Below, piece by piece: positions 6,426 through 56,792 of a DNA stretch of 64,000 nt; the first letter of the stretch is position 1; every line of letters begins with the position of its first letter. The stretch comes from Anniella stebbinsi. Lineage: Eukaryota; Chordata; Lepidosauria; Squamata; Anniellidae. The position numbers and the translations under genes were made by a program. The notes beneath the pieces are model-generated. The model worked only from the letters and a program-made list of their open reading frames with translations, did no database searches and had not been told where the DNA came from. The stretch spans positions 45,616,001 to 45,680,000 of the forward strand of contig JARDYH010000002.1 of NCBI GenBank assembly GCA_029215795.1. Reading direction: 5' to 3'.

Positions 6426-8880
6426 TAGGTCTGTAAAAAGAAAAGCTTGGTGGGGTAGTGACCCTAAAGAGGGAAATAAGGCTGGAGACAGAGTATGGAA
6501 AGACCATGAAGAGACCTGGGGCTATCTACATGGTGTTGCTTTCACAGCTAATCCCCCCACCCAAAACCTGCAGCATCGCAGTTGCGAAGAGACAACTAAT
6601 GTGACACATGGGCACAATTGAATGTGGAATATCCTGCCTGAAACTTCAGAGGATCAGTTACATTGCTGTAATACACAGCAAATAGTTGCTAACAACAGGG
6701 CTCTGAAAGTAATTTCTTCTTCTTCTGCTCAACTCCATAGAAGTGAAAGGATGCTTTCATGTACCTACGCAGCTTCAAAACAACAGGCACCCACTCTCTT
6801 TCAGCTGTGTTCCTGTATAGTTGCGAAGCTTTGACTCAACAGGCTTCAACAGCTGCACAACTGCAAAATAGTGCAGCAGTAGAAAGAAAAGGCAGCAGTT
6901 GAGCCCACATTCATAACAGTGCAGTTTCAAAGCAGCAGGGCTGGCTCCCCTCCACACTCCTGTATTTGGCAAAGTGCAATGGAAGGCAATGAGTTACTTC
7001 TGGGTAGCCATGTTTAGCCCTCTGCTCTCACACAGCCCATGCAACTTTCTCTTCAGCCAATCAGCACAGCTTCCACCAGCCCAAGCCAAAGCCAGCTGAG
7101 GTCACATGGACTCCCAAACTGCACTGAACCTGCAGGGACAGGAAAATCAGTCACAAAAAATGAGTTTGAAAAAATATGGATTTAGGGTAAGAAATGTTGT
7201 GCTAGCTATGGAGAGGGCACTTGGGGTGGAGTAGAACTGGAGTAAAAGCTCCATGTAGATACCCCTCTGAATGTAGGAACAGTATTTTGTGTTGAATGTA
7301 AAAGTATAACTGGAAAGCCAATTCAGAACTATATTTAAATATTATTTTAAAAGAGGTAAGGTGTTGTTTTGACAAAAAGTGTTGAGTTTTCAAATTTTTC
7401 CTATTTCATTCTAAATACACATTGCAGTGTAGGATTTATATTATGCTGAAGAACACAGAACCAGGCTTCAAATGAAAGATACAAATTGGTTGTGAATGAC
7501 AAATGTAGCTTACATACCCCAAAGCACTCAACCTGTCTGACAGATACAATTACACATGCTTGCATATAAATATGTAGGCTGATGGAAAGCAAGAGCCTTT
7601 TGCAAAAGTATAATAAGCATTCTCACATGTCTCTTTATTTTCTGTTAATTGCTGTGGTTTGACTCTTTCACAGTTCTCCACCCCACCCCTAGAAAAGATA
7701 CACCATCTGCTTGGTTACTCTGTTTTCCTGGTATCATGCCCATTTAAGCCTTCCCAGTTTCTGTCTATTTTAAGTAAAACACTCATTAAGGACAGTCACA
7801 GCTGTCACACAGTGGCATTTGGAAAGAAGCATTCTCCTTTTGCTTATGTGCCAAGACAATAAGAATATCACTTTTGTGTTTGATAATTAAACTTCTCTCC
7901 TCTTTGGAATTTATCTACTTTCATCTGCATCCTACAGAAGGTAACCACAAACCACAAATATCTGAAGGGTTTTTGGAAATGGCAATGAAAGGAACTGGGG
8001 AGGTGGGGCAGGGAAAGTAAGGGAGAGTAATTAAATATTGTATAATATCTGAGTGAGAGGGCTACAGATTAAAAAATCATTTTTTATTACTGGAATCCTA
8101 GAAGGTACTTATTCTTGAGGCATAAAACCCCATACCCTATCCCAAACTGCTTTTGAAATTGTTCTCACTTCAAAAGCAGTATGTCATAGAGTCATGCGAA
8201 AGGGTCTTCTTTCAGACCTAAGGCAGATAGAACTAGTTGCAGTTATTTGAATCCTAGCCAATAACTGGGCTAATACACATATTAGTCATAACATTCAGGA
8301 AGTCAGTTTATACTTATCAGTATTTCTTTTGTATTTTGCCATATTAGTTATATTTTTCATTTTACATTCTCTTACATTTCCAAAGCTCAGTCTGTAAAGC
8401 CCACATTACAGATTGAGGCGGCCATGGCATATTGTATCTGAAAATAGCTTCTCATGAAGAATTCATTCCCTGCTATACTGTAGTTTTGCTCCACCTGAAT
8501 TGACTATTCAGACACTCTACATTATATATTGGAAGTCATGTGACAACAGCCATTTTGGATCTCTGGAGAACAGTAAATGGACCACAACTTAACTGTAACA
8601 TAATTAATAACATCTCACAAGTGTTTGGTGCTTTAAAAGTTTAATGGCACTGTGGGAGTATGATTAAATATAATGCTATGTGCATTAATATTTTACATAA
8701 AACCAAAGGACGAAAAGAAAAATAAGCCTAAAGGCATATAATGCATCTTTGTAAATCAGAGTGGTTATATTGTTAAAGTTCAAGGCGTTGCTTAACGGGC
8801 AATTCAAAGATATTTTACACATTCTAAAAGCTGCTCTTGAAAGAAACTGGCCAAAGAAGCTAGGGTTAAAATAAGAAATA
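6426..8880. other. intergenic, nothing recognised
   Basis: No coding region, RNA gene or bounded repeat could be supported. The stretch is AT-rich with scattered short open frames lacking any family resemblance. Confidence 0.45.
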
Positions 8881-8885
8881 TAGTA

Positions 8886-9191
8886 GGGTGACCAGATAAA
8901 ATCCAGGTCAGGGCTCATGTAACTTTAACAGTTGTAGAGAAAAGGGAATTTCAGCCGGTGTCATTTGTGTGCAATTAGTTCCTGGTGAAATTCCTTTTTC
9001 ATCACAACTGTTAAAGTTGCAGGGGCCCTGCCTTCTTTTGTATATGGTCACTCTAGTATAGTGCCTGCACCTTTAACTGTTGTGATGAAGAGGGAATTTC
9101 ACCAGGAACTAAATGATACCAGCTGAAATTCCCTTTTCTCTACAACTGTTAAAGTTACATGAGCCCTGACCTGGATTTTATCTGGTTAGCC
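8886..9191. mobile_element. palindromic MITE, inverted-dimer form, TA-flanked
   Basis: The element begins GGGTGACCAGATAAAATCC and ends with the near reverse complement (GGATTTTATCTGGTTAGCC). It is flanked by TA on both sides (8884-8885, 9192-9193), the Tc1/mariner target signature. The entire 306 bp is a near-perfect inverted repeat. Each arm contains the motifs TTTAACAGTTGT and GAAATTTC-like words also seen in the 168-bp family members. No ORF. Confidence 0.8.
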
Positions 9192-9201
9192 TAAATATAG
9201 G

Positions 9202-9202
<1 letters not shown>

Positions 9203-9240
<38 letters not shown>
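9203..9240 (+). repeat. (CA)n microsatellite
   Basis: Uninterrupted AC dinucleotide run of about 38 bp, immediately downstream of the palindromic MITE. A length variant of the same tract lies in the duplicate copy at 11787-11823. Confidence 0.95.
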
Positions 9241-9243
<3 letters not shown>

Positions 9244-9306
9244 ATGGCAGCCTTAAAAGGTTCCAGTTTAATGTGCAAAGGTACCATGAATTTTCAAGAG
9301 TGCTTC

Positions 9307-10620: not shown

Positions 10621-11460
10621 GAATACAGATGGTATTCCTTTATATTCTATGTATATCAGTTCTCTCTTCTATTTAATAACTGTTCAACTATGCTGATACT
10701 GGGAAAACATTAAATGTCACTTTGAATGTATGATTACTGTGATATAACCATAATGCCAGATGAATTTGCAGCCCACCATCCTATGCATTTTACTCAGCTC
10801 TTACAAAATCCACTCCTGCTGCTGTTGTAAACTGAGAACTACTTTGTTGACTAAGCAGAGCACCAACTAATCTAATCTGACATCTGTCATAAAATCTAAC
10901 ACTATCTAGATAAACAGTGTCTATCACACAATAAAGAGGCAGTGAAGAAAGAACCACGTTAATGTATTGTGTCCACCTTCTTCAGTAAAAAACAATTTTC
11001 CTTAAGTGCCACAATATGCTTTGCATGTGTGGCCATGTTCTCATGCTTTCCTTTGTACAACTGTATCAGTCAGGTATTCAGGAGCCAGAGTACAAACATG
11101 ATACAAAATAAACTTGTTGTAAGCCACAACTTATTCACCAGAATGTACAGCTATTAAATATAATGTTGTAAATTGCTGCATCTCAATAAAGCTACAAATA
11201 CTTGGCTTATTGGCCCATAGCTCTACTGATGCAGAAGTAATAAAGCATACATGTGTCCATTTACAAAGACATACAGATAGAATTCTCAGAGTAAAAGTCT
11301 TATGCCAACCTAACATACTTCTACAAAAAAGGCCATTTGTCAGTCAGACATGTTTCAACTCGTTTTGTCCTTGTGCAATTATACCAATAGATGAAAATTC
11401 CTTTTCCTTTCCTATGAGTGCTAAGGCAGTGAAGACATCCCGTATTGACAGAAGAAAATA
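10621..11460. other. intergenic, nothing recognised
   Basis: AT-rich sequence without supported genes, repeats or RNA features. Confidence 0.45.
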
Positions 11461-11465
11461 CAGCA

Positions 11466-11768
11466 GGGTGACCACATAAAATCCAGGTCAGGGCTCATGT
11501 AACTAACAGTTGTAGAGAAAAGGGAATTTCAGCCAGGGTCATTTGTATGCAATTAGTTCCTGGTGAAATTCCCTCTTCATCACAACAGTTAAAGTTGCAG
11601 GGACCCTGCCTTCTTTTGTATATGGTCACTCTAGTATAGTGCCTGCACCTTTAACTGTTGTGATGAAGAGGGAATTTCACCAGGAACTAATGATACCGGC
11701 TGAAATTCCCTTTTCTCTACAACTGTTAAAGTTACATGAGCCCTGACCTGGATTTTATCTGGTTAGCC
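11466..11768. mobile_element. palindromic MITE, inverted-dimer form
   Basis: The duplicate of the 8886-9191 element. The left flanking dinucleotide is CA instead of TA, a probable point change after duplication; the right flank retains TA. Both arms and the central 'ttcttttgtatatggtcactctag' are preserved. Non-coding. Confidence 0.8.
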
Positions 11769-11782
11769 TAAATATAGGAACA

Positions 11783-11786
<4 letters not shown>

Positions 11787-11823
<37 letters not shown>
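11787..11823 (+). repeat. (CA)n microsatellite
   Basis: AC dinucleotide tract, the homologue of 9203-9240 within the duplicated block. Confidence 0.95.
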
Positions 11824-11826
<3 letters not shown>

Positions 11827-11890
11827 AATGGCAGCCTTAAAAGGTTCCAGTTTAATGTGCAAAGGTACCATGAATTTTCAAGAGTGCTTC

Positions 11891-12251: not shown

Positions 12252-12475
12252 ATTTTGCTAGCTTCTCCTCACAAATCTAGGATGACCATATGAAAAGGAG
12301 GGCAGGGTTCCTGTAGCTTTAACTGTTGTATTGAAAGGGGAATTTCAGCAGGTGTCATTTGTATGCATACAGCACCTGGTGAAATTCTTTCTTCACCACA
12401 ACAGTTAAAGTTGCAGGAACCCTGCCCTCCTTTTCACATGGTCATCCTAGTTTTTTGAGGAGAAGCTAGCAAAAT
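12252..12475. repeat. extended palindrome enclosing a 168-bp MITE
   Basis: The direct flanks of the MITE at 12280-12447 are themselves inverted copies. ATTTTGCTAGCTTCTCCTCA occurs at about 12252-12271, and its exact reverse complement lies at about 12456-12475. The palindrome therefore runs past both TA target sites, which a simple MITE insertion does not explain. Confidence 0.75.
12280..12447. mobile_element. 168-bp palindromic MITE (TA-flanked)
   Basis: Begins GGATGACCATATGAAAAGG and ends with the near-perfect reverse complement (CCTTTTCACATGGTCATCC). It is flanked by TA at 12278-12279 and 12448-12449, consistent with Tc1/mariner-type insertion. The body contains 'ctttaactgttg' and its complement symmetrically. 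Same length as the copies at 13820-13987 and 21161-21328. Confidence 0.8.
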
Positions 12476-12477
12476 TG

Positions 12478-13817
12478 AGACTGCTATGAGTTGAGACTGC
12501 TATGGTCGCCTTAGTGGATGATCTACGCCTGAGTATTGATAGGGGGAGTGTGTCCCTGTTGGTACTCCTGGACTTCTCAGCGGCTTTTGATACCATCGAC
12601 CGTGGTATCCTTCTGGAACGCCTGAGGGGATTGGCAATCAGGGGCACTGTGCTTCAGTGGTTCCGGTCCTATCTCTCAGGCAGGTTCCAGATGGTGATGC
12701 TTGGGGATAGCTGCTCTTCAAAGAAGGAGCTGCTATGTGGTGTACCACAAGGTGCCATCCTTTCCCCAATGCTGTTTAACATTTATATGAAACCGCTGGG
12801 AGAGATCATCCAGAGGCATGGGGCAGGATGCTATCAGTACGCTGATGACACCCAAATATATTTCTCTATGCCTTCGGCAACATTGTCAGCTAAGGATAGT
12901 GTGTCTCCTCTGAATGAATGCTTGGAGGCGGTAATGGGCTGGATGAGGAAAAACAAACTGAAGCTGAATCCAGACAAGATGGAGGTGCTTTCTGTCAAAG
13001 GCCACAGCCTGGGTTTGGAGGTGTGTCAACCAGTTCTGGATGGGGTTTCACCCCCCCTGAAAGACTGTGTTCGCAGCTTGGGGGTACTCCTGGATCCATC
13101 GCTCCAAATGACAGCCCAGATAGATGTGACGGCCAGGAGTGCCTACTATCAGCTTCGGCTGATATGCCAGCTGTGCCCCTTCCTAGAGTTGGAAGACCTA
13201 AAGATGGTAGTGCACGTACTGGTAACTTTGAGGCTCGACTTCTGCAATGCGCTGTACTTTGTGCTTAGTCCGGAAACTTCAACTAGTTCAAAATATGGCA
13301 GTCAGGTTGGTCACCGGTACACCTAGGGGTGACCACATAACACCAAACTTAAAATCACTCCACTGGCTGCCAATTAGTTTTCAGGCGAAGTATAAAGTGT
13401 TGCTCATTACCTTTAAAGCCCTACATGGTTTGGGTCCAGGTTACCTGCGGGATCGCCTTCTCCTGTATAATCTGCCCCGCACATTCAGGTCCTCTGGGAA
13501 GAATTTACTCCAATCAGCCAGAGCTAGGCTGACGAGTGTTACCCAGAGGACCTTCTCTTCTGCCGCTCCCAGACTGTGGAATGGCCTGCTGGAGGAGATT
13601 CGACAAATTAGCAGACTTCTGGAATTTAAGAGAGCTGTGAAGACTTCTCTTCCAGCATGCCTATCCAGTTGAATTTTAAGACATTTTTAATAATGTATTT
13701 GTTTTTATTTGTTTTAATGTTTTATCTATTTTACGATTCTTGTATTTATATTTGTTGTTGTTCCCCGCCTCGATCTGGATGGAGAGGCGGGTTAGAAATA
13801 AAATAAATAAATAAATA
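12478..13817 (+). pseudogene. 5'-truncated L2-clade LINE (RT pseudogene)
   Basis: Reverse-transcriptase fragment of a CR1/L2-group non-LTR retrotransposon. The first frame (from about 12502) shows palm motifs LLDFSAAFDTIDRG, GVPQGAILSP and the catalytic YADD in QYADDTQIYF. A frameshift near 13250-13265 moves the frame to RKLQLVQNMAVRLVTGTPRG, LHWLPISF and the conserved L2 C-terminal region, ending about 13672. The 3' end is an L2-type 'cgcctcgatctgg' hairpin plus an (AAATA)n-like tail at about 13793-13817. The endonuclease domain is missing, as expected for 5' truncation. The frameshift makes it non-functional. A second L2 with the same domain order is at 28665-29563. Confidence 0.85.
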
Positions 13818-13819
13818 TA

Positions 13820-13987
13820 GTACGACCAGATACAAAAGAGGGCAGGGCTCCTGCAGCTTTAACAGCTGGGATGAAAAGGGAATTTCACCAGGTGCTGCAT
13901 GCATAGAAATGACAACTGCTGAAATTCCCCTTTCAATACAACAGTTAAAGCTACAGAAGCCCTGCCATCCTTTTCATATGGGCACCC
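13820..13987. mobile_element. 168-bp palindromic MITE (TA-flanked)
   Basis: Inserted exactly at the A/T-rich tail of the L2 fragment, with TA on both flanks (13818-13819, 13988-13989). It begins GTACGACCAGATACAAAAG and ends with the related CTTTTCATATGGGCACCC complement. Same family and exact length as 12280-12447 and 21161-21328. Non-coding. Confidence 0.75.
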
Positions 13988-13989
13988 TA

Positions 13990-14437
13990 ATAAACCTCTC
14001 ATTTGTGCCCAACATGAATTTCTTGATTAGGCTTGTGAAGAGCTAGGAGTCTCAAACTAGGTATTGCAGCATCAGCATGTACATTCCTCGCTGCAGCACT
14101 ATGACAGCTGGCCAAAGCTCTCTGCTATAGTTTGATACTACTGATGAAGATGGCTAGAGTTCTACTGCAGCTACCAACTCAGCAGGAACCACGTGACACA
14201 ATGGGCACAATGAAGTTCTACCAAGCCATATAAAGTTTCTCACTCTCACCTGGTTCTGCAGTCTGAGCAAGCTGGTGGGTAAAAACTGAGGCCATATCTA
14301 CACCAAGCTGGATATAACATTTTGAAAACAGTTCCCACATACACTGCAATGGCCCCAACAGTAATTACCAATAATCTTTCGACCACCAATACTAGAAGAT
14401 ACCAAAGGTGGAGAAGCCTTTAAAGTATCATGAATCA
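13990..14437. other. intergenic up to LINE insertion site
   Basis: No gene recognised. Positions 14423-14437 (AAGTATCATGAATCA) are the left copy of the target-site duplication of the LINE that follows. The preimage sequence continues at 20988. Confidence 0.6.
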
Positions 14438-14538
14438 TCATCATCATCAACTTTATTGCGGCCGACAGGCCAGAAAAACAGATAAACAGTCAGTAGTATT
14501 TATACAGTATATTCACGGGTACGTTAAATCTGAACATC

Positions 14539-17500
14539 TTATATAACTACTTGAGCTCTGCAGACCAGTATATTATGGACAAATTTGGCTACTTGGGTTG
14601 TAATATATTTGTCTTTGCCCTGAAGTAAAAAGACTACTATTTCGCGAGGGTTCTTATCAGCTAAATCTTTAATTAGGGGGCCAATTAAGGTGATCCTATC
14701 ATCTCTATAGAAGATGCACTTAATCAACATGTGTTCGACCGACTCTACCTCTAAATTATTACACGGACAGAGTCTCTCTTCGATAGGGGTTTTCTTAAAT
14801 CTTCCTACCAGTAAGTTAGAAGGGAGGGCATTAAATCTTGCTAGAGAGAAGGCTCTTCTAAATTTGGGCACTGTTAACCATCTCAAATAGTTCATTCCAT
14901 CTTTGCCATCCTCTCTCAATAGCTCTAAAGAGTGTGGGGAACATGGGCCGCGGGCCTTACCCTTCAGCTCCTGAAGATCTATATCTTTCAGTCTTTGGCT
15001 CACAAGACTCTTAGCTACTCTGATGTCCGAATTAAGTAAAACAAAAGGAGGAAGCCCTATCAAGTGGATCTTCTGGGCTATCTCTTTCACCCATTGGGAG
15101 ACATAAGTGTCCAAGAGAACCTGGGACACTAAAGAATTTGGGGAAAGGCCATGATAGAGTTTAAGCCAGAATTGTATTGAATGGGTCCATGCCAAAGAGC
15201 TCAAAGAGGAAAGACCTGCTTCCAAATTAAGAACCGCCCCCGCTACACACCTAGGAGTTCCAAATAAGAGTCTTAGATAGGATGTCTGAGTATCTTCTAT
15301 CGAACGTTTGTTGAGAGGGAACCAGATTGGTGCGCCAAATAAAAATTGGGCAACTAATTTTGCTCTGAATGCTCTAATAGCCGATGGTAAAAATCTACCT
15401 CCCTTTTGATAGAAAAAGCGACATAACGCTCCCAGAGTCTGTTCAGCTTTTCCTTTAATAAAGGATAAGTGCTTTTGCCAACCCAAATTCTCCTGAAACC
15501 AGATCCCTAAGTACTTAATGGCATCAACCTGGTCGACTTTCCGCCCATCCATTCTCCAAGGGAATCTAACTTTTTTCTTCGCAAAAACCATGATTTTGGT
15601 TTTTTGGTAATTAATTGACAGTTTGTTAACATTACAATATTCTGCAAAGCTATCTAGCAGTCTATTAAGGCCTAGGCGTGTTTGGGATATCAGAACCGCA
15701 TCATCAGCATATAAGAGTAAGTTAACCCTAGAGTGACCTATTTTGGGCGGATGTGATTGAATTATGGAAAGCCAAGAGGGAAGATCTGCAAGATATAGAT
15801 TGAAGAGGGCTGGGGCCAGCACACAGCCCTGCCTAACCCCTTGTGAAAGGGTGAATTCATCTGTAACCTGTCCCTGGGATCCACAGCGTACTTGGCCTGA
15901 GGTATTAGAATACAGAGATTTTATCAGAAATAGGAGCCTGCCATCAATCTCAAGTTTCTCTAACTTCAGCCAAAGGCGTGCTCGGGATACCGAGTCGAAT
16001 GCAGCCTTAAGATCAATAAAGGCGCAAAAGAGTTTCCCTCCTTTAGTATTTGTGTATTTTAAAGCCAGGTGAAGCAGAGTCAAACAATGGTCGTTGGTGG
16101 AACTCCCAGGTTGGAAACCAATCTGTTCCTGCCCCAGGATGTTTCTGTCAGTGATCCAATCTCGCAATTTTATATTTAGGTAGCTAGCGTAGATCTTGCC
16201 CACCACTGATAACAAACTAATTGGTCTGTAGTTGCTTGGGTCACTTCTAGGACCTTTTTTATAGATTGGGATTATCACTGCTTTCCTCCAGACCGAAGGT
16301 AGATGACCAGAGTTATTTATCTTGGTAAAAAAAGGCGCTAAGATCGATGCCCACCACTCTGGGGCGCTCTTCAGCAGGTTAGTGCTAATTCCGTCCGGGC
16401 CTGGAGCCTTACCAGACTTCAGGTTGATTATCAGTTTCTCAATTAAAGAGGGGTCCACCAGCGGCCATACTGAAAAATTTGACTCAATAAGAGGGCAAGG
16501 ATTTATTTCGTTGTGTTTGTTAAATATAGATTTAAAGTATTCTTCCCAAGTTACCGCTGCTATTTGGTTAGGCAATGCACCAATCCTATCTCTTGTAGCC
16601 CCTGCCACTATTTGCCAGAAGACTTTATTATTTTTAGAAATTGTGGCAGCTATTAATAGTTGCCAGGATTCCCGGTCCGCTTCATACTTCTTCCGTCTAA
16701 GAAGCTTTTTATAAGTCTTCTTTAGGATGAAGTATTGAGCGGGAAGTTGTTGTTCGTTATTCTGGCGGTAAACAGCATACACCGTCTGAAGCTTTTTTCT
16801 TACTTCAATACAGTCTCTATCAAACCAGTTTTTACTTAGTCGTTTGGGCCCTATCTTATTGGTTTTAGGCTGTAAGGCATCAGATATTTCTTGGATCATC
16901 CTCTCATACGCGTCAACAGAGATTTCAGGGGAATGTGCGGCTGTTATTATATTGGTGTACTTAAGATAGCTGTCTGATTTTAATTTTTGGGCAAAAATGT
17001 CAGCCGACTCCTTCGTCCATCTAGAATTTATTCTATTAGTATGAGTTTGAATATCTAATAATGGGGTGCAAATATTCAACCGAAAGGGTCCCTCCAAGGC
17101 CAGTGCTAGCTCTAGTGGGCGATGGTCACTATCCAGTCGGTTGGCCACACTAAAATGTTTAACAGTGTTTAGCATCTGGTTATGGAGGATAAAATAATCA
17201 ATAACACTAGAACCCCTACCTGGGGTACAAGTGAATTCTCCATACTGGTCCCTATCAAATCGGCCATTCAATATACTTAGGTTATTTCTGGCGGTCATCT
17301 GTAACAGGCAGTGGCCGGCAAAATTAAAGTGCCGATCTTTAGATTGGCGAGCACAATTTATCGGGGATATTTTATCTGCATCATGTCCCACTGGGCCCTT
17401 TGATGGAGGAACTGAATAATTACTAGTTCTGGCATTAAAATCGCCCGCTAGTATTGGAAGGGCTTTTGGGAATTTAGCAAACAACTCCGTTAAAAAGCTT

Positions 17501-17904
17501 TCAGCCTTCAGCCAAACCTCATGGATAGCTTCTTTGCCAGATAATGGGGCAAGGTAAAAATTACAAAGCAACAGTTCAGACCTTAGGGTACCCAGATGTA
17601 TATGCAGTGCCTGTATCGCCGAATCGTGGGTAGAAAGTTTTGTTATGTCAATGTCTAAGGTCGTTGAAATTAAAATCGCCAAGCCTTGGCGATACCTGCC
17701 TTTCCCCTTATTTCGGAACGCTGGTAGGCATAGTGAGACAAAACCATTTACAAAAATCTCATCACTGGACCAAGTTTCCTGCAGGAATATTATATCAAAT
17801 CCCGCAAGGTATTTAAGAAGGCTGGGGTCCTTATTTTTAGGGCCCCAGCCAGCAACATTCCACGAGAGGAGCTTAAGTATGGTATTATCATCTCTGGCGG
17901 TTAG
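14539..17904 (-). CDS. LINE ORF2: endonuclease / reverse transcriptase
   Basis: Nicks target DNA and reverse transcribes LINE RNA (target-primed reverse transcription, nuclear). The open frame runs 1,121 codons from directly after the ORF1 stop. APE-type endonuclease motifs are in order: LLSWNVAGWG (about residue 12-21), FLQETW (40-45), LAGDFNA and, later, SDHRPL. Reverse transcriptase follows (NYRPISLLSV, AFIDLKAAFDS, QGVRQGCVLAP, catalytic LLLYADDAVL). The C-terminus has a C-x-C...H...C element around CPCNNLEVESVEHMLIKC. No in-frame AUG exists in the first 74 codons, although they include the endonuclease N and E residues. A start at the TTG at 17682 would delete them. Translation therefore probably depends on readthrough from ORF1. 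No frameshift or stop interrupts the domains. Confidence 0.9.
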   Translation of the reverse strand, partial: LTARDDNTILKLLSWNVAGWGPKNKDPSLLKYLAGFDIIFLQETWSSDEIFVNGFVSLCLPAFRNKGKGRYRQGLAILISTTLDIDITKLSTHDSAIQALHIHLGTLRSELLLCNFYLAPLSGKEAIHEVWLKAESFLTELFAKFPKALPILAGDFNARTSNYSVPPSKGPVGHDADKISPINCARQSKDRHFNFAGHCLLQMTARNNLSILNGRFDRDQYGEFTCTPGRGSSVIDYFILHNQMLNTVKHFSVANRLDSDHRPLELALALEGPFRLNICTPLLDIQTHTNRINSRWTKESADIFAQKLKSDSYLKYTNIITAAHSPEISVDAYERMIQEISDALQPKTNKIGPKRLSKNWFDRDCIEVRKKLQTVYAVYRQNNEQQLPAQYFILKKTYKKLLRRKKYEADRESWQLLIAATISKNNKVFWQIVAGATRDRIGALPNQIAAVTWEEYFKSIFNKHNEINPCPLIESNFSVWPLVDPSLIEKLIINLKSGKAPGPDGISTNLLKSAPEWWASILAPFFTKINNSGHLPSVWRKAVIIPIYKKGPRSDPSNYRPISLLSVVGKIYASYLNIKLRDWITDRNILGQEQIGFQPGSSTNDHCLTLLHLALKYTNTKGGKLFCAFIDLKAAFDSVSRARLWLKLEKLEIDGRLLFLIKSLYSNTSGQVRCGSQGQVTDEFTLSQGVRQGCVLAPALFNLYLADLPSWLSIIQSHPPKIGHSRVNLLLYADDAVLISQTRLGLNRLLDSFAEYCNVNKLSINYQKTKIMVFAKKKVRFPWRMDGRKVDQVDAIKYLGIWFQENLGWQKHLSFIKGKAEQTLGALCRFFYQKGGRFLPSAIRAFRAKLVAQFLFGAPIWFPLNKRSIEDTQTSYLRLLFGTPRCVAGAVLNLEAGLSSLSSLAWTHSIQFWLKLYHGLSPNSLVSQVLLDTYVSQWVKEIAQKIHLIGLPPFVLLNSDIRVAKSLVSQRLKDIDLQELKGKARGPCSPHSLELLREDGKDGMNYLRWLTVPKFRRAFSLARFNALPSNLLVGRFKKTPIEERLCPCNNLEVESVEHMLIKCIFYRDDRITLIGPLIKDLADKNPREIVVFLLQGKDKYITTQVAKFVHNILVCRAQVVI

Positions 17905-17907
17905 TCA
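17902..17907 (-). promoter_or_regulatory. candidate stop-codon readthrough site (UGA CUA)
   Basis: On the sense strand ORF1 ends ...GAA ATG ATC UGA, and the next codon is CUA, continuing in the same frame into ORF2. UGA followed by CUA is the established leaky-termination context (alphaviruses and several vertebrate readthrough genes). Here the following base is A rather than the G of the strongest UGA-CUAG form. A nearby ATG (GAGATGATA) is out of frame with ORF2. Readthrough itself is inference. Confidence 0.65.
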
Positions 17908-20181
17908 GATCATTTCATCTATTAAGTCCAATTTCCCTCCCTTATTATCAATAATACATCCATTCTTAGGTCTGCCAGGTTGTTTTCTAACTTCCAGATG
18001 ATGCAAATGAGGCTTTGAAAGTCCATCAGCGCTGTCATCTGCTGTGGTCCGGGCAAATCTTGAGCAGGTGTTCATGCTAATATTAGTATTAATGTCAGTG
18101 ATATCAATATTGTTAGTGGGTCCCGTCCCGCTGCAATTCCTACGTATGTCGGCTTCATTATCTCCGTAGCTCTTACTAGGTGGATTGCTATCTGTAGGAT
18201 AGCAATCTAATGAAGCAGTTACAATTGCCCGATGAATCGTTAAATTATTTTTTTGAGGGATTAAACACTCGTCATTTCGTGATCTAATGATATCAAATTG
18301 AGTGCTTGCCATATCTTTTGCCATATCTTCCTGCTCAGGCTCTGAATCTTGATTGATCAATCCTACCTTTTCTGGCATTCCACTTGTCATGTTTCTACAT
18401 GGCTTAGAGTTGGCGTTCTTTGCCTTAGATAATAATAATTTCTTCAGTGCAGATAATCTGTCCAGGATGAACTGTTGCTCTTGGGCAGGTAAGGCCTCAA
18501 AACTATTTATTAGTTGATTTTCCTCCTGGAAAGGGTCTTGTAATAGAGCACCCGGGTTAGACTCGGTACTACCCTCTTTACTGGGAGTATAATTGGGCAC
18601 ATGATTTGAGAGACTCAATCTGGTATCAGAGTTCCCTTCAGAGCAAATAATTGTCCTGGGGCTGATGGAAGTATTAAGATGTGGTCCAGGACTTCTGTTC
18701 CCGTACGTCGACTTAATGGGATCCCTAACACACAGTTTGGTCGGAGGGGCTGTGTTGAAGAAGTATCTGCTAACCAGCATACCTCTATCCCGCAGCCGCT
18801 CTCTTCTGCTGTATATCTTGGCGGCTGCATTCAGGGAATCAAAAGTCACCACTGCCCGAGCTGAAAAGTGATTAAAATAAAGATATTCTACTCCCAAAAC
18901 TCCAGCTTGAGAGAGGCATATTTGTGCAGACTCTGCAAGAATTGCAATGAGGTGATCTATTCTAGCAGGGTGTGATATCACTCCTTTTGGTTTAGGGAAA
19001 TTTGAGATTACTAATATCCTTGGGTTCCATTGTAGGGACCAATAAATCTCATCACCTGGATTAGATCTTTTCAACTCAGCTTTTGGCTGGTTAGGGGGCT
19101 GTTGGTTAGCCACACTTGGGGGCTGAGTAGGTTCGAGGAGGTCATCCGCCCTGCACTCATGTGTATTATCTGTAGTAGTAGATTTACTTGTACTCTTTTG
19201 GATACTGCCTTTCTTGACTTCCGAGGCAGGAGTTTTAGTTGCCTTGTTGTTTTTAATTCCTGACCTGGCAGGTTTACTTTTATTGTCCGTCTTATACTTA
19301 GTTCTTGACTCCGGCTCTTCCATTAATTTAAAAAGTCTGTCAAATTTCATTTTGGTGGATCTCCTGGTTTTGCTATTAGATTTTAAATTTTTTGACTTTT
19401 TTTCCAGTGCACCAAGAGATTTGCTAGATTTGTTATTCTGAATTCTCTTGGATTTAGTACGTCTTGCCCTGGTTTTTTGAGCTGGGCTTGCTGGAGCCTT
19501 TATACTGCTATTGAATGAGGGAGCTTGATTTGGGGCAATAAAAGTCATTTCACCTAACTTGACTTGAGCATTGGTTTTAGTTTGCTCAAGAGCAAAAGAT
19601 GTTAGTGTTGTTAAAAGATCCGTGGTCTCGGACAGATATTGCTTTATCAATATTAAATCGCACCTCCACTCCGTAATCAGATTCCTAATTTCTTTGAAAT
19701 GAAGATTCATTTGCAGTTCCATATTGGCTAAGATATTATTTTGCTCAACCTGTGGAGTCATAGAGCCATTTATTTTATATATTGCTAAAGCTGGTTCTTC
19801 ATACACAAGACCAGATGCTTTGATTTGGTTGGGAGAGCTAGGACTAGAGCCTCCATCTGCCGTTGCTGAGTCAGCCGTTTTTCGCCCGTTCATCTTTTCG
19901 AGCATTGTATCAGCATCGGCAATCTCTTCTGCTAGACTGTGTGTATATTCTTCAAGACTTTCAGGGTCCTCAGGCCGCATGATACATTGAGGACCCAGGG
20001 ACCAGTCTAGAGGTGGCTCTGTAGGTGCTGTTTCCTCCAGGTTATTGTATGCTTTAGCCCCTGGGTTATGTTGGAAAAAATTTGTAATTTTTAACTGCTT
20101 ATGGGTTTTAACATAAACACTCACATCTTCTGCTATAGGGATCATTCCCTTTGATTTATAGCCAACTCTTGTTAACACCAT
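17905..20181 (-). CDS. LINE ORF1 protein with RRM-like domain and PIP box
   Basis: A 758-residue ORF1p, presumably the RNA-binding RNP partner of ORF2. Residues 29-36 read QLKITNFF, fitting the PCNA-interaction consensus Q-x-x-[ILM]-x-x-[FY]-[FY]. Residues about 140-200 look helical and coiled-coil prone. Residues 230-335 are very rich in Lys, Arg and Ser (basic, disordered, likely nucleic-acid binding). Residues about 387-480 look like an RRM fold, with a RILVISNF strand and a later ARAVVTFDS strand. The C-terminal third is polar, with an acidic/glutamine patch near 560-600. No CCHC knuckle was found. The start is the first ATG of the frame, with stops upstream. The RRM assignment is by pattern only. 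Confidence 0.8.
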   Translation of the reverse strand: MVLTRVGYKSKGMIPIAEDVSVYVKTHKQLKITNFFQHNPGAKAYNNLEETAPTEPPLDWSLGPQCIMRPEDPESLEEYTHSLAEEIADADTMLEKMNGRKTADSATADGGSSPSSPNQIKASGLVYEEPALAIYKINGSMTPQVEQNNILANMELQMNLHFKEIRNLITEWRCDLILIKQYLSETTDLLTTLTSFALEQTKTNAQVKLGEMTFIAPNQAPSFNSSIKAPASPAQKTRARRTKSKRIQNNKSSKSLGALEKKSKNLKSNSKTRRSTKMKFDRLFKLMEEPESRTKYKTDNKSKPARSGIKNNKATKTPASEVKKGSIQKSTSKSTTTDNTHECRADDLLEPTQPPSVANQQPPNQPKAELKRSNPGDEIYWSLQWNPRILVISNFPKPKGVISHPARIDHLIAILAESAQICLSQAGVLGVEYLYFNHFSARAVVTFDSLNAAAKIYSRRERLRDRGMLVSRYFFNTAPPTKLCVRDPIKSTYGNRSPGPHLNTSISPRTIICSEGNSDTRLSLSNHVPNYTPSKEGSTESNPGALLQDPFQEENQLINSFEALPAQEQQFILDRLSALKKLLLSKAKNANSKPCRNMTSGMPEKVGLINQDSEPEQEDMAKDMASTQFDIIRSRNDECLIPQKNNLTIHRAIVTASLDCYPTDSNPPSKSYGDNEADIRRNCSGTGPTNNIDITDINTNISMNTCSRFARTTADDSADGLSKPHLHHLEVRKQPGRPKNGCIIDNKGGKLDLIDEMI

Positions 20182-20972
20182 TGCAGCTTGTAGGCAATTA
20201 GGACAATTATTAAGCTGTGACTAGAGCTTTAAAAGTCAGTTATTGCCTATCAATGTGTTGACAATTTTCTCTTGATGTGTTGGTTAATTGTTATTCGAAC
20301 AACGCCAGGATTTCGCTCCTGGGGAGTCAGAAAAGGCTCTGCACGTAGTGGTCTAGCAACGCCCCTACTGGTTTCCAAATTAACCTCTATCTTGTTCTTT
20401 ACTATCGTTGTTATTGTTGTTAATTCTTAACTTAAAGTTCATGCCAAATTCAATCCTCACTCTTTACTTTGTCGTTATCTTTGCTGCTGGCTTATTAAAG
20501 CTTCTCAGAACTTGCAGGCTGCCTTATCTTCTTTGCTTGTTATGTTCTAGTGTCTTTATCTCCTTGTTATTCTTAACATCTGTTACTTCCTATGGTAATA
20601 TTTTAAAGTGCAAAGTGCCGTAAAAGAAATTCTTAAAAATATTTGTTAGTGCCAGAGCTGTTTTAAAAGGTTTGACTTAAAATAGCTTAAAATTTCTTGG
20701 CTTTGAAGTATAAAATTTCAGAGAAGCACTTAACTGAGTTTGTTTGTTTGCAGAGCCCCAGGCGTCCTCCTAGCTTCCAAACGCTTCACTCATTTCCCTC
20801 AAGCAGCAAAGGCAGAATAAGACATTTCATTTCACTTATCTTGTCTTTTCTTATCTTTGGCCTGGCTTAATTTAGCAGGCAAGAATGTGGAGTGTAAAAA
20901 ATTACGGAGCTTCAAACAACAGCTACCGGCTAGCAGCCACCGGAAACGGAAGTCCCCCTCGATTAGCAAGTC
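20182..20972 (-). other. LINE 5' untranslated region
   Basis: About 790 bp between the 5' junction (20972, next to the target duplication) and the ORF1 start codon. The 5'-most part is relatively GC-rich (sense start GACTTGCTAATCGAGGGGG) and may hold an internal promoter, as in other full-length LINEs. No motif was identified with confidence. No long open frame on the sense strand. Confidence 0.55.
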
Positions 20973-21160
20973 AAGTATCATGAATCAATCTTGTTCTCAA
21001 ATTATGTGCATTTTTATAAACAAACACAGGATTACTTCTGCAATGTGAGATTTCTTCCAGAAGATGCCAATATTTGCAAACCAGTTTTAATTTGCGTTGT
21101 ATATCCATCATAGGTTCGGAACTATAAAACTTTCCTGATTTCTGTGCTTTTTTGTATCTA

Positions 21161-21328
21161 GAGTGAGCAGACACAAAAGAGGGCAGAGCTCCTGCAGCTT
21201 TAACTGTTGTGATGAAGAGGGAATTTCACCAGGTGCTGCATGCATACAAATGACGCCTGCTGAAATTCCTTTTTCTATACAACTATTAAAGATACAGGAG
21301 CCCTGTCCTCCTTTCCATATGATCCTCG
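21161..21328. mobile_element. 168-bp palindromic MITE (TA-flanked)
   Basis: Begins GAGTGAGCAGACACAAAAG and ends CCTTTCCATATGATCCTCG, flanked by TA at 21159-21160 and 21329-21330. The internal symmetric words 'ctttaactgttgtgatga' and 'acaactattaaagat' place it in the same family as 12280-12447. Somewhat more diverged. Non-coding. Confidence 0.75.
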
Positions 21329-21330
21329 TA

Positions 21331-45160: not shown

Positions 45161-45165
45161 AAGTA

Positions 45166-45481
45166 GGGTGACCAGATATAATCTAGGTCAGGGCTCATGT
45201 AACTTTAACAACTGTAGAGAAAAGGGAATTTCAGCCAGTGTCATTTGTATGCAATTAGTTCCTGGTGATATTTCCTCTTCATCACAACTGTTAAAGTTGC
45301 AGGGGCCCTGCCTTCTTTTGTATATGGTCACTCTAGTATAATGCATGCACCTTTAACTGTTGTGATGAAGAGGGAAGTTCACCAGGAACTAATTGCATAC
45401 AAATGACACCGGCTGAAATTCCCTTTTCTCTACAACTGTTAAAGTTACAGGAGCCCTGACCTGGATTTTATCTGGTCACCC
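45166..45481. mobile_element. palindromic MITE, inverted-dimer form (316 bp)
   Basis: TA-flanked (45164-45165, 45482-45483). It begins GGGTGACCAGATATAATC and ends with the complement (GGATTTTATCTGGTCACCC). The arms of about 150 bp are near-perfect reverse complements. This is the best-preserved copy of the dimeric form also at 8886-9191 and 11466-11768. It sits at the 3' end of the L1. Confidence 0.8.
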
Positions 45482-45483
45482 TA

Positions 45484-46061
45484 ATCTAATTGAAATCAGA
45501 TTTTATTATTTCTGATCAATATAGCATGTAATAAAACATAGGTACCAACTTGTATAATCTGTACTATAATCTGTACTATACTATATACATGCCAACTATT
45601 AAATACAGAGCATCATACACCAGTGAGCTGCTGGCCATCCTGCAGGACAAAGTAAACAAAAACAGCTGAAGTCTATTCTATTTTATCAGGTGCAAAACCA
45701 AGCAGCCTCTTCAGAAATTAGTAGTAGTAGTAGTAGTAGCCCACCTTTCTACCAAAAATGGCACTCAAGGTGGTTTACAGAATGAATTAAAATTAATTAA
45801 AACAATGCTTTAAAATATGATAAAAGCTTAACAATTATAGGAAAAACTATTTTTTAAAAGAGCACCCAACCAAAGAATGTAAGAAGAATGATACTGGATC
45901 AGATCAAAGGCCTATCTAGGCCAGCTTTGTATTCCCACAGTGGCGAACCAGAATGCCTATGGGGACCCAGAACATGACATGAACACAATACTATCCTCCT
46001 GCTTGTGTTTCCAAGTTATGGTATTGAGTGCCATACAGCCAATGATGCTGGAGTTAATATA
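45484..46061. repeat. unassigned spacer with LINE-tail fragments
   Basis: Contains a (GTA)n run (45721-45738) followed by 'gcccacctttctacc' and 'actcaaggtggtttacagaa', a minus-strand LINE 3' tail. Then 'ctggatcagatcaaaggcctatctagg' (45898-45924) matches a common LINE-3'-derived motif. No gene. Confidence 0.45.
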
Positions 46062-51564: not shown

Positions 51565-52340
51565 ACTTGAGGTGCGTGGGTTAAACAACTGAGGTGAGTA
51601 TGTTAACGGAAAAGACCATAGAGGAGAGCGGCAGGAGCAGCAGAAAGCGGACGGGAGCTCAGGCGCGGATGAAACGGAGCGCTGGTTTCACCGCCATAGC
51701 AACTGGGACGCCCGCCTCCCCCACCAGGCAGCCAGCAAGGAGCTCAAAAAGGAGCCTGCTCCTGCAAGCACTCATGTAGGGTGCCGAGTCAGCCACCCAA
51801 ACGGAAAGGGAAGTGCACCAGAACAGAGCCAAGGCAAAAGGGGGGGGGGGAGGGGGAGACGGAACAAGCACCAACCCCAGGCGCCCAGGAACAAGGAGTA
51901 GCCCCCCCCAACAGGGGGAACGACACCCCATCCAGAGTAGACCCCCACCGCAATGCCACCCCCACCCTTGCATCACCCAGAAGGACGAGGGATGGGGAAG
52001 CAGCATCCAGATAGCTCCCCCCCCATTCGCCCAACACGGCTGGACAGCGAGCATAGGCGAAACCTATCTCCAAGACGCTAGAAATGCCAAGGCAATTGGT
52101 GCCCGTGGGCGACAACCAGCCACCTGCGGATGTTGTGGAAAACCAATGAAGGCATGCACAACAATCCCAAGGACACGAAGAGGCCCCGGCCACCAAAGAC
52201 AACAATGCCTACGCACAGGGCACATTCATAGCAAGCACTAGAGCCCACCAGCACCCACCGACACACATCCACACGGGACTGGGAAAGGCAGCCCAAGGCA
52301 CAGACCACCCTCAACACCGAACCACACACCCATTGGCAAC

Positions 52341-54539
52341 ATGGAGCCAGAGGGAGAGGGGCCAAGGGACGATCTGGCTGAGGACACCGGCTCACAATCC
52401 CCTGAAGAGGGGAGCAGCCAGGACCCCCAGGAAAGATGCAGAGCGCTGCGCTGGTCCGAGGAGGAGATCGGCCACTTCATAGAGCTCTGGGGGAGCCCGG
52501 AAGCCAGGAGGATCATGGCCACTGCCAGGCACGATAAGCTCTACCCATGGCTAGCCGAGAAAATGCAGGAACGGGGATACGACCACAATGGAAAGCAATG
52601 CAAGGACAAGCTCCACAGACTCAAGAGGAAGTTCAAGGAGATTGTCACTCACAATAAAAGAACCAGCACCCAGCCATGCACCATGCCCTTCTACGATGAA
52701 CTGTCACGCCTGCTGTTGGAGCGTCTCAATGTTGTCCCGGGCCACACAGCAGGCAGCGGGGTCGCCACCAACGAGCCTCCGCGCACACGTCGGCGAGCAC
52801 GGCTGGACCAAGGGGTGCAACGGGAAGAGGGCCCCACCGCACAGAAACAGGAGCCCCCGGCAAGGCCGGTCGACCCACGGCCAACACCCCCCGCCAAGGC
52901 CGCCCCGAAACCATCATCTGCTCTTCCTGCCAAGGCCGCCCCGAAACCGTTATCTACTCCTCCTGCCAAGGCCGCCCCGAAACCATCATCCACTCCTCCT
53001 GCCAAGGCCGCCCCGAAAGCAGCATCCACTCCTCCTGCCAAGAAAGTTGCGAGGGCAGCATCCACACCCCCTGCCAAGAAAGTTGCGAGGGCAGCATCCG
53101 CACCCCCTGCCAAGAAAGTTGCGAAGGCAGCAGCTGAAGCATGTCCGGCCAAGGTGAGGCCGATGAGCCGGCCCGCAGCATCCACCTGTGCCACCCAGGA
53201 CAGCCACCGCCTCAAGGAGCATCACCCCCACGCCTGCCTCCTCCAGCAGCAGCAGCCCCACAGCCTTCTTACGCCTCATCTGTGCAGACATGCAGGTGGA
53301 GGACCCCGCACCTATCTCCCTGGTGCCAGAGACCCAGCAGGGAGAGGAAGAGCCAGGGCCGTCCCGTACGCGGGACACTCTCGCGAAGGGGAGCTTGGCT
53401 GCCACCGTTGGGCGAGTGGCACGGCCAGTGCCAGCGCCACGCAAGTGGCTAGGGTCCTCGAAACACGCAACTATGGTGCAGGGAATACCGCACGGGATCC
53501 TGGATGTCGTCACGGAGACGGGGCCTGTGTCCCAGGAGGAACAGGAGGAAATGGAGCTGCTCGTGGAACAACAGGTGGGCAATGTGCTCAAGCCTGAAAT
53601 GTCGCCGTCCCAGGAAGAGCTGCTCAATATTGATACGCAGGCCTCCAACGAAACGTACATGGAGATGGAGGCGATGTAGACGGAGGCGCCGTCGAAAGTG
53701 GAGCTTGAGGCTGGGGAGGCCGTGCTGGAGCGGGAGATCGAGGGGTCCCCACAGCCGGAGGACGAGCTGATGGAGGGAGGGGCCCCCCTACCACCGCACG
53801 TAGGTGAGCACGGTGAGGTTGAGGCCGAAGAATCCCGTCCCCTGACCAACGCGCAGAGGTGTGTCTGGATGCGCAGGGCAGACCGGCTGCAGGTGGCGAG
53901 GGAGTGGTCTCTGTCACGGAGACAACTGGGGAGCGCATCCACGACCTGTTCACACAAATGGCGGCCGAGGAGGAGGCCAGGCGCACCAAGGAGCGCGTCC
54001 TCACCGTGTGGGCCACACGCACAGCCGCACAAGCCGTGGAGGAGTGCGCCTAAGCCACACGGGAGGTGGGGAGGGAAGTGCGTATAGGTCTGGAGCGCCA
54101 TGTCACCGGCATGACCGAGGCCATGGCCGCCACCGATGCCATCATCGACCGAGGCATGCGGGAGCGCACAGCAGCCATCAACCGCCAAACCAAGGTGCTC
54201 AGGAAGCTTGCCCAATCCTTCCGTGGAGCCTACCATGGGCCACCGCAGCCTGCGCCCTACATGGGGCCATACGGATACATGGCGCCGCCGCAGCAACAGC
54301 AGTACATGCCCCCACTGATGGCCGCACCGTATCGGGCCCCACGGTCAGCGGCATCAGCAGCAGGTGCCTCAGGGAAGTCAGGGGGGGAGGCCGGAGGGCA
54401 GGTGCACCGGAGCATAGGCGGCCGCCCAAAGAGGGGCCCCGCCATCCCACCAGACACCGACGACGAGGGCGAGGAGGAGGGCGAGGAGGAGGAGGAGGAG
54501 GAGGGGTTGGAAAGGCCCACTCAGGACGACATGGCCTAA
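52341..54539 (+). pseudogene. Harbinger Myb/SANT-like DNA-binding protein gene, broken
   Basis: Harbinger elements pair their transposase with a Myb-like protein that brings it to DNA and the nucleus. The N-terminus (from 52341) is acidic, followed at residues about 35-130 by a trihelix/Myb-like domain (RWSEEEIGHFIELWG, KQCKDKLHRLKRKFKEI). Next come about ten tandem units of PPAKAAPK/PPAKKVA type (about 52888-53135). After about 53150 the plausible frame shifts to the one containing VEDPAPISLVPETQQGEEEP, with an in-frame TAG at 53677-53679. A further shift near 53890 leads to a C-terminal part with a Met/Pro/Gln-rich tract and an acidic run (DDEGEEEGEEEEEEE) ending 54539. An intron could explain some frame changes, but the stop suggests decay. 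Confidence 0.75.
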
Positions 54540-55397
54540 GGTGAGGTCGTCCTACGAACCCCTAGACCCATCCCCCATAGAACCATAGGGACGTGCAGTT
54601 GTATTCCCTCCCGCACCCCTATACGCGATAGGACCCCGTTAGATACGCGTCCCTCTGGCCGCCGCCTCCCTCAGCTCAAGGCTGTGTCCATCAGCATCCC
54701 AATGCAACAATGTTGCACGTGCTGGATGCCTCTCGTTCCCGGCCCTATCTCCCCTCATTGCAGCCAGAACCAGGCGTGATGGCAACACCCTACAGGTCCG
54801 ACGGCCACCAAGCAGGGCGCATTGTCCGACGCCGAAGGGCCCTTCGGCGCGGAGGTTGGTAACTGGGCTGTTAGGCGGTATGCATTGGTGTTATTGTGGC
54901 TTCTGTGTCACTGATGGCTCTCTCTCTCCTCTCCCCCCTTCCGTTCTTGCCTCCCAGGGAAACTGCACTTCCTCCGCCTTGCCATCCAAGGCACGCCGTC
55001 TCCACGCTCTGGAGGTGGCCCTGGGAGAAATAATACGTCGCATTCGACGTCAGGAACAAAGCGTCCGGTGCTGGCGCCGTCCGAACCACGGCCAGCCGTA
55101 GGGTTGTGTGGCAGCTTGGAGGCTCATGCCCATTCCCCTAGTCACAGCGTAGTAATGGCCCGCTCTGCCGATTCCCCATCACGCACCCCACTCCGGCCGC
55201 TTCCTGTCACTCCCCTCTGACTTGTAGGTGCGTTTTAGCCTAAACAAATCCTCCTGTCCTCCCATTCCCACGCTAACAATGTTGATGGTCCCAAGCTCCA
55301 TCTCTAGTCCCACCTCCCTCCACCTTCCTGCTCCGTCTCGTCCACCGCTCCTCCCGTCCCGCCCGCCTCCTCTCTGGCCCGCCCGGCATTTGAAAGG

Positions 55398-56792
55398 ATG
55401 TCCTGGAGGGAGCTCGCGACGGCCTGCTTGCAAGGAGCGATCCAGGCGGCCACGCAAAACTACGCCGATGCTGACGAGGAGGACCTATTCCATGCCCGCC
55501 TACGCCGGCTAGGTGAGGACATGCCCGCGAAGCCAGTGTTCAGGAGGGAGACCTTCCGCTGGCCGCTCGGAGCAACGGAGGCTGTGCCTTGTCTTCAGGC
55601 CTCAATCCTGCCACTGGTTCGTCCCCGTGCGGCCTCCGCGTTGCTCGCGGAGAAGTTGGCCGAAGGAGCCCTGCACCGCGCCCCACCCCTCTCGACATCG
55701 GCCGAGCTTCTTGCCGAGCGTGAAAGCGTGCACCGCTGGGTGCTCCCCCGGACAAACGCCGTGTGGCATGAGATGCAGGACTTGGAGGACTGGGATGATG
55801 AGGGCTTTTGTGGGAGCTTCCGCATGTCTCACGCAACGTTCGAGGTGTTGGTGGCCGAGGTGACCCCTGTCCTACAGCGGGGGTGTACAAATATGCGCAG
55901 ATGTATTCCAGTCTCCCGTCGCCTCGGCCTCACACTGTACAAGCTGGCGTTCAATGTGGGCTACTTGCCCCTGTTGACCATCTTTGGGGTGGGCGTGTCT
56001 ACCACATGTGAAATCTTCTGTGAGATGTTGAGCGTGCTGAATGAGCTGTACCTGGCTGACGTCATCCGGGTGGGGGACGAGAAGGAGAACATGCGTGGCT
56101 TCCGTGCCCTGGGCTTCCCATGGGCGGTGGGGGCAATGGACTCAACCTATGTGCGCATCCTGGCTCCGCCCACCCGTGGCAAGGAGTACTTCAACCGCAA
56201 GCATTTCTACAGCATGGTTCTGCAGGCAGTTGTGGATGCCAAGGGCCGCTTCCTGGACGTGTATGCGGGCGTGTCTGGGCGGAGCCATGACACAGCTGTC
56301 TTCTGGAACTCCCCCCTGGCTGCCAAGCTGATATCGGGGCGCTTCCTGAAGTCTGGTCCCGCTTCCGTGTGTGGCCGTGAGGTGAGTCTGCTCCTCCTAG
56401 CTGACCAGGCCTTCGCCCTGCAGCCGTGGCTGATGGTCCCATAGCACTACCCGCGCACCAGCGTGCAGCGTAAATACAACTACTACCATTGCCGTGCCCG
56501 CCTGCCCGTGGAGCGTGCCTTTGGGCGTCTGAAGGAGCGCTGGCGCTCCCTGTTCAGCTTGTTGGACTTGCAGGCCGACATCATTCCAGACGTGATGGTG
56601 TGCTGCTGCATCCTGCACAACATCTGCGAGTCCCGTGGGGACGTGTTACTGGCTGAGCACCCCGACCTCCCTTGGGAGGGCGAGGACGCCGATGCCATCG
56701 CTGTGGATGGGCGTGACGTCGAGCCTTTGCCGGGGCCAGAGAACCCCGTTGGGGAGCGTCAACGCCCGTGCGGAGACGTCCCGGGTGCGTGA
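55398..56792 (+). pseudogene. HARBI1-like transposase gene with one premature stop
   Basis: DDE-type transposase (DDE_Tnp_4-like) that cuts and joins Harbinger ends. From 55398 the frame encodes an N-terminal helical region (SFRMSHATFEVLVAEVTPVL). The catalytic core follows: GAMDSTYVRI (first Asp), SGRSHDTAVFWNS (second Asp), LLADQAFALQPWL, then VERAFGRLKERWRSLFSLLD (Glu), CCCILHNICE and an acidic tail. A single TAG at 56442-56444, in the block where relatives read P-Y, splits the frame. The same frame is open again to 56792, giving about 465 codons. Without that stop it would look intact, so decay is recent, or this is a polymorphism or assembly error. Confidence 0.85.

Follow-up and report, generated by a model that had tools for sequence, protein, structure and literature searches.

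How are the endonuclease and the reverse transcriptase of a LINE translated when their reading frame lies directly behind the stop codon of ORF1, in the same frame as ORF1, and holds no AUG ahead of the endonuclease core? This question is raised by an element on the minus strand of a 64,000-nucleotide stretch of the genome of Anniella stebbinsi (contig JARDYH010000002.1), which we call the window. A sequence-only reading of the window had proposed that ribosomes reach ORF2 by reading through the UGA stop codon of ORF1. The features on which our analysis is based are collected in Table 1.

Table 1. Features of the LINE and its junction between ORF1 and ORF2; positions are those of the window.
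Feature	Position	Strand	Remarks
Full-length LINE, 6,535 nt	14438..20972	-	perfect 15-bp direct repeats on both sides; 5' UTR to (TGA)n tail
Target-site duplication, 3' side of the LINE	14423..14437		direct repeat, AAGTATCATGAATCA
Target-site duplication, 5' side of the LINE	20973..20987		direct repeat, identical AAGTATCATGAATCA
5' UTR, 791 nt	20182..20972	-	5 upstream ATGs, with ORFs of 7-20 codons each
ORF1, 758 codons from ATG	17908..20181	-	N-terminus MVLTR common to Rhineura floridana protein P0066
Possible RRM-like stretch, ORF1 residues 389-464	18790..19017	-	strand-helix-strand-strand-helix; AlphaFold2
ORF1 stop codon TGA	17905..17907	-	
CTA, codon next to the ORF1 stop, opening the ORF2 frame	17902..17904	-	
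ORF2 frame, 1,121 codons	14542..17904	-	first in-frame ATG at codon 203
Nearest downstream ATG, out of the ORF2 frame	17889..17891	-	
AUA codon 9 of the ORF2 frame	17878..17880	-	context ACC AUA C; candidate near-cognate start or former AUG
Hairpin, 31 nt	17820..17850	-	54 nt past the stop; -20.2 kcal/mol
Apurinic-type endonuclease (Exo_endo_phos), ORF2 residues 13-261	17122..17868	-	Pfam, E 1.1e-10
Reverse transcriptase (RVT_1), ORF2 residues 549-802	15499..16260	-	Pfam, E 4.5e-37

The bounds of the LINE could be set, and the element recognized as full length, because a perfect 15-bp target-site duplication flanks it on both sides. A (TGA)n simple tail can be read at its 3' end, adjoining one copy of the duplication. 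An endonuclease and a reverse transcriptase in ORF2, a target-site duplication, a simple 3' tail and a separate upstream ORF1 together place the element among the APE-type LINEs with two ORFs, and an RNase H domain was absent from it in Pfam searches at E values of up to 1. ORF1 and ORF2 together comprise 1,879 intact codons, and the observed/expected ratio of CpG is 0.48 in the LINE versus 0.36 in the window outside it. Because of these intact codons, the perfect duplication and the CpG ratio, the copy is apparently young, and it would have been active recently.

The ATG of ORF1 (20181-20179, minus strand) lies in a good context, with G at both -3 and +4, and the frame to which it belongs is free of stops from 20220 to 17908, stop to stop. 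This start codon is further supported by a protein (P0066) of Rhineura floridana, a worm lizard, which was the sole relative of ORF1 when 7,992 candidates were scored with an E value limit of 0.001; it is 27% identical to ORF1 and begins with the same five residues, and it also agrees with a squamate host. Pfam revealed no convincing domain in ORF1, the only match being PRIMA1 with an E value of 0.061, below the cut-off of that family. The AlphaFold2 model of ORF1 shows an order of elements resembling that of an RRM, which is only suggestive because the mean pLDDT was 31.7.

Among the candidates scored, the nearest relative of ORF2 was a protein (P0001) from an assembled contig that matches almost the whole of ORF2 at 37% identity. 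It resembles ORF2 in this respect and differs from it at the N-terminus: P0001, which is known from its protein alone, starts with a predicted ordinary Met in MKSKNLKLLSWN, five residues ahead of LKLLSWN. The best match of ORF2 to the structures of L1 ORF2p, by sequence, covered residues 487-803 only. The start positions of 103 ORF2 relatives were compared, 52 of which align up to the start of the endonuclease. With the position of query residue 10 as the reference, 46 of these begin up to 31 residues before it or a little way inside it, and the other six extend 49-247 residues upstream; these statistics are weak, because gene calling always opens a predicted protein with a start codon. Two of the relatives, P0041 and P0043, carry approximately 180-220 additional N-terminal residues ahead of the endonuclease.

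The junction between the two ORFs proved to be as the sequence-only reading had described it. On re-reading the sequence, we found that the TGA is directly followed by CTA, that the same frame stays open for all of its 1,121 codons (17904-14542, minus strand) up to a TAA at 14541-14539, and that the endonuclease motifs WNVAGWG and FLQETW are present after the stop. The earlier statement that 74 post-stop codons lack an AUG was true but too low: 202 codons pass without one, and the first in-frame ATG, codon 203, falls inside the endonuclease. The nearby ATG, which is the sole ATG between the ORF1 stop and the endonuclease core, is out of frame with ORF2 as had been claimed, and its own frame closes after 33 codons. 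Thus, the ORF2 frame offers no AUG on or just behind the stop of ORF1, and the only codon of note there is the AUA at codon 9.

The stop itself precedes LKLLSWN, which forms the first endonuclease strand, by 9 codons, and it lies close to the point at which most of the relatives open their ORF2. Because of this position, the intact codons and the perfect duplication, we suggest, from the sequence of this one copy, that the TGA is the native end of ORF1 and not a product of random decay. Simple arithmetic indicates that a random stop would fall within approximately 15 codons of the ORF boundary of a 1,879-codon frame with a chance of approximately 1.6%, and CTA makes up 28 of the 1,879 codons of the LINE (1.5%, the post-stop CTA included). 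A random lesion that yielded both a stop and a following CTA at the boundary is therefore unlikely, with the limit that the motif was picked out after it had been seen.

The context had been called a known leaky one, and UGA CUA is indeed the regression-derived consensus for high readthrough in human (PMC4359377, available in part), with the limit that the base at +7 is A in the LINE and that the best tested base there is G. In HeLa cells, one UGA CUA U context gave a readthrough of 0.61% and two UGA CUA G contexts gave 0.99% and 2.29%, compared with 0.27% for the control; UGA CUA A is not among the contexts in the accessible part of the same paper (PMC4359377). The human genes LDHB, AQP4, SYTL2 and CACNA2D4 possess the same six bases as the LINE, and in three of them the next base is G and in one it is T, whereas it is A in the LINE; moreover, the extension of LDHB measures 18 nt, whereas that of ORF1 would measure 1,121 codons (PMC4359377, in the portion available).

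These observations suggest a mechanism in which the TGA would be the genuine terminus of ORF1, the full-length LINE would have been active in recent times, and a small share of the ribosomes would decode UGA CUA as sense, so that ORF2 would be appended to the C-terminus of ORF1. RNA structure approximately 50-90 nt past the stop might assist this step. The outcome would be much ORF1p and little of an ORF1-ORF2 fusion, presumably the active enzyme, as with Gag and Gag-Pol of the gammaretroviruses. We regard a native stop with readthrough at UGA CUA, possibly aided by RNA, as the best explanation of this locus, and rate its probability close to, though not quite at, an even chance. It is ranked above its rivals because under these both the common frame and the CTA would be matters of chance. 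The frame, the context, the lack of a usable AUG and an excess of structure over the 90-120 nt directly downstream of the stop all fit the readthrough proposal; its exclusion of reinitiation was too broad. Against readthrough stand the fact that it is read from one copy of the LINE, the A at +7, the alternative offered by the AUA at codon 9, the Met start of P0001 and the layout of one distant locus (L002, below).

The excess of structure was found by folding of a single sequence. Among 1,000 synonymous shuffles of ORF2, 12 folded at least as well as the 90 nt directly behind the stop and 24 at least as well as the first 120 nt, and the windows at +50 and +0 ranked second and third of the 66 along ORF2 in this analysis. 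Dinucleotide shuffles yielded no excess of structure for the 60 and 80 nt directly downstream of the stop (z of +0.16 and +0.41, respectively), and an excess appeared only from 100 nt on (z of -2.75 to -3.67). The window at +1150 outscores the post-stop windows in both tests, and the window at -300 scores about equally in the dinucleotide test. The 31-nt hairpin, which was chosen after it had been seen, was matched or beaten by 2 of 1,000 synonymous shuffles. Elements that stimulate readthrough usually lie approximately 8 nt past the stop, and this hairpin lies farther away. Hairpins of 31 nt that are at least as stable form six clusters on the minus strand and four on the plus strand of the window, the post-stop hairpin and its antisense included; the antisense (17819 area, plus strand) folds better, at -25.1 kcal/mol.

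The rival that survives best is that ORF2 is translated by termination and reinitiation at a non-AUG codon, most simply at the AUA of codon 9, 24 nt past the stop, which would release a free ORF2 protein whose N-terminus coincides with the first endonuclease strand. The sequence-only reading had ruled out reinitiation at an ORF2 AUG; this holds, as no AUG start is usable, but it overlooked non-AUG starts such as the AUA. Of the first ten codons in the ORF2 frame, this is the sole near-cognate one, and the A at its -3 position makes for a strong context. In the alignment, the N-termini of two relatives (P0009 and P0057) lie one residue ahead of the first endonuclease strand, exactly at the place of codon 9, and that of a third (P0059) does so by extrapolation. 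Near-cognate AUA starts are weak, however, and reinitiation would turn both the shared frame and the UGA CUA, with CTA at 1.5% of codons, into coincidences. In favour of reinitiation, ORF2 of SART1 and of L1 is held to be translated in a manner coupled to ORF1 (PMC5972666 and PMC2881922, both available in part), and the start of human L1 ORF2 is thought to be independent of its AUG (PMC5009743, in part). On balance, we consider this explanation unlikely.

A little more unlikely is the scenario that the copy is damaged, in that an AUG of the family became AUA at codon 9 by one transition, with the frame and the stop context being accidental. ACC AUA C is indeed a single change away from an AUG in strong context, just where a start would be expected, and a start lies close by in 46 of the 52 relatives, which is partly forced by gene calling. 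Nevertheless, in a copy with 1,879 intact codons the one lesion in evidence would have to fall on the start codon, and the scenario also requires the same frame by chance, eight spacer codons free of stops and, again by chance, a stop that fits the readthrough consensus; by our estimate, moreover, a codon one step from ATG is not rare within 9 codons.

Still less probable, in our view decidedly so, is a family with a single long ORF in which this copy alone acquired the TGA, by mutation of a codon such as CGA or TGG. The continuous frame, in which CGA occurs 8 times and TGG 28 times, would fit this, and single-ORF elements are known in L2 subgroup 4 and CR1 subgroup 6 (PMC4120745, in the part available), but a random stop within approximately 15 codons of the domain boundary has the chance of approximately 1.6% given above for 1,879 codons, and only six of the 52 relatives extend more than 31 residues upstream. 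Finally, that the UGA is read as selenocysteine, or is bypassed by splicing or frameshifting, is very improbable: its only merit is that UGA is the codon for selenocysteine, which is itself unlikely here because neither a SECIS nor any other Rfam match was found in 14400-21000 at E values of up to 1, and frameshifting is needless as ORF1 and ORF2 share a frame.

Further copies of the LINE were searched for in several collections. Searches of viral contigs with ORF2, with P0001, with ORF1 together with P0066 and with the junction DNA found no copy of the same family, and a search of them with an alignment of 11 proteins found one distant reverse transcriptase. The DNA of the 3' end hit three records among the viral contigs; we took these as chance because two of them share a 21-base match only and the third shares none. 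In prokaryote genome contigs, ORF2 found nothing and the alignment found ten distant loci, which are 23-30% identical. In a collection of 5.8 billion proteins, no copy of the same family was present among the approximately 8,000 candidates sharing the most words that were scored per search, the candidates being 0.55-1.75 times the length of the query, so that shorter fragments of the same family would be missed. Within the 64-kb window, DNA comparison detected no second copy of the LINE, and protein comparison detected two weak reverse transcriptase matches, 26% and 43% identical over short stretches.

The start of ORF2 was reached in only one of 14 loci, L002, which is also the sole distant locus that could be read across the junction. 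Its upstream ORF ends in TAG and is followed by 42 nt with two further in-frame stops and then by the ATG of ORF2, in the same frame as the upstream ORF (L002:1049-1094). The contig is filed under a Marinifilum MAG and is probably eukaryotic contamination.

Known systems offer both likenesses and differences. In MuLV, gag and pol are structural and polymerase ORFs in the same frame, and one stop between them, a UAG, sets the ratio of the products (PMC5009743, in part). The LINE might follow a similar plan but differs in being non-LTR, in having UGA CUA instead of UAG and in that no pseudoknot is shown for it, and its readthrough is putative. Mammalian L1 resembles the LINE in that ORF1 is followed on one RNA by an ORF2 for endonuclease and reverse transcriptase, and the translation of its ORF2 is unconventional. 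In L1, however, a 63-nt spacer precedes an ORF2 AUG (PMC5972666, in part), whereas the LINE described here runs on in one frame and lacks such an AUG. In SART1 of the silkworm, stop and start are coupled in UAAUG, and ORF2 depends on translation of ORF1 reaching the stop (PMC5972666, in the part available); the same dependence would hold here, whereas the LINE has no ATG that overlaps the stop or lies in frame near the endonuclease.

Diversity of ORF1 is well documented in the Jockey group, and in L2 subgroup 5 a domain is placed after a stop and a start codon (PMC4120745, available in part). The term readthrough is absent from the main text of that paper, as far as it was available, and the open-licence full-text literature contained, among the matches listed, no report of stop readthrough between the ORFs of a LINE.

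How ORF2p is synthesized from the RNA of ORF1p is unclear even in human L1, whose ORF2 is considered likely to begin in a novel way that needs no AUG (PMC5009743, in part). If readthrough is true of the LINE described here, two ORFs in the same frame with a consensus leaky stop between them would be a simple answer to this problem in one lineage. The polymerase would then act as a fusion tethered to a presumed RNA-binding ORF1 part, and this tethering might favour cis preference. A wider proposal is that this is a family of vertebrate LINEs without a separate ORF2 start, which would obtain its endonuclease and reverse transcriptase only as an ORF1-ORF2 fusion, through programmed UGA CUA readthrough with an RNA stimulator on the 3' side, a strategy like that of retroviruses for Gag and Gag-Pol that would have evolved independently in a non-LTR retrotransposon; we put this forward tentatively, as something somewhat short of an even chance.

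Other mobile elements were observed in the rest of the window. A short, partly palindromic repeat of approximately 170-430 bp occurs at 8876-9306, 11456-11890, 12278-12449, 13818-13989, 21158-21330 and 45162-45484, and two of its copies flank the LINE. The copies match one another in both orientations, the best pair being 95% identical over 438 bp, and the repeat looks like a non-autonomous DNA transposon. At 12490-13326 on the plus strand, Pfam detected an RVT_1 fragment of another LINE family, and DNA within or near it (13016-13459) resembles 29553-29100 at 66%. Pfam also identified, near each other on the plus strand, a Myb/SANT-like protein (52242-53597) and a DDE_Tnp_4 transposase (55308-56444), a pairing that we assume to be the one found in Harbinger-type DNA transposons. 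The Myb protein contains 36-bp tandem repeats (52893-53132), which encode a stretch rich in alanine, proline and lysine.
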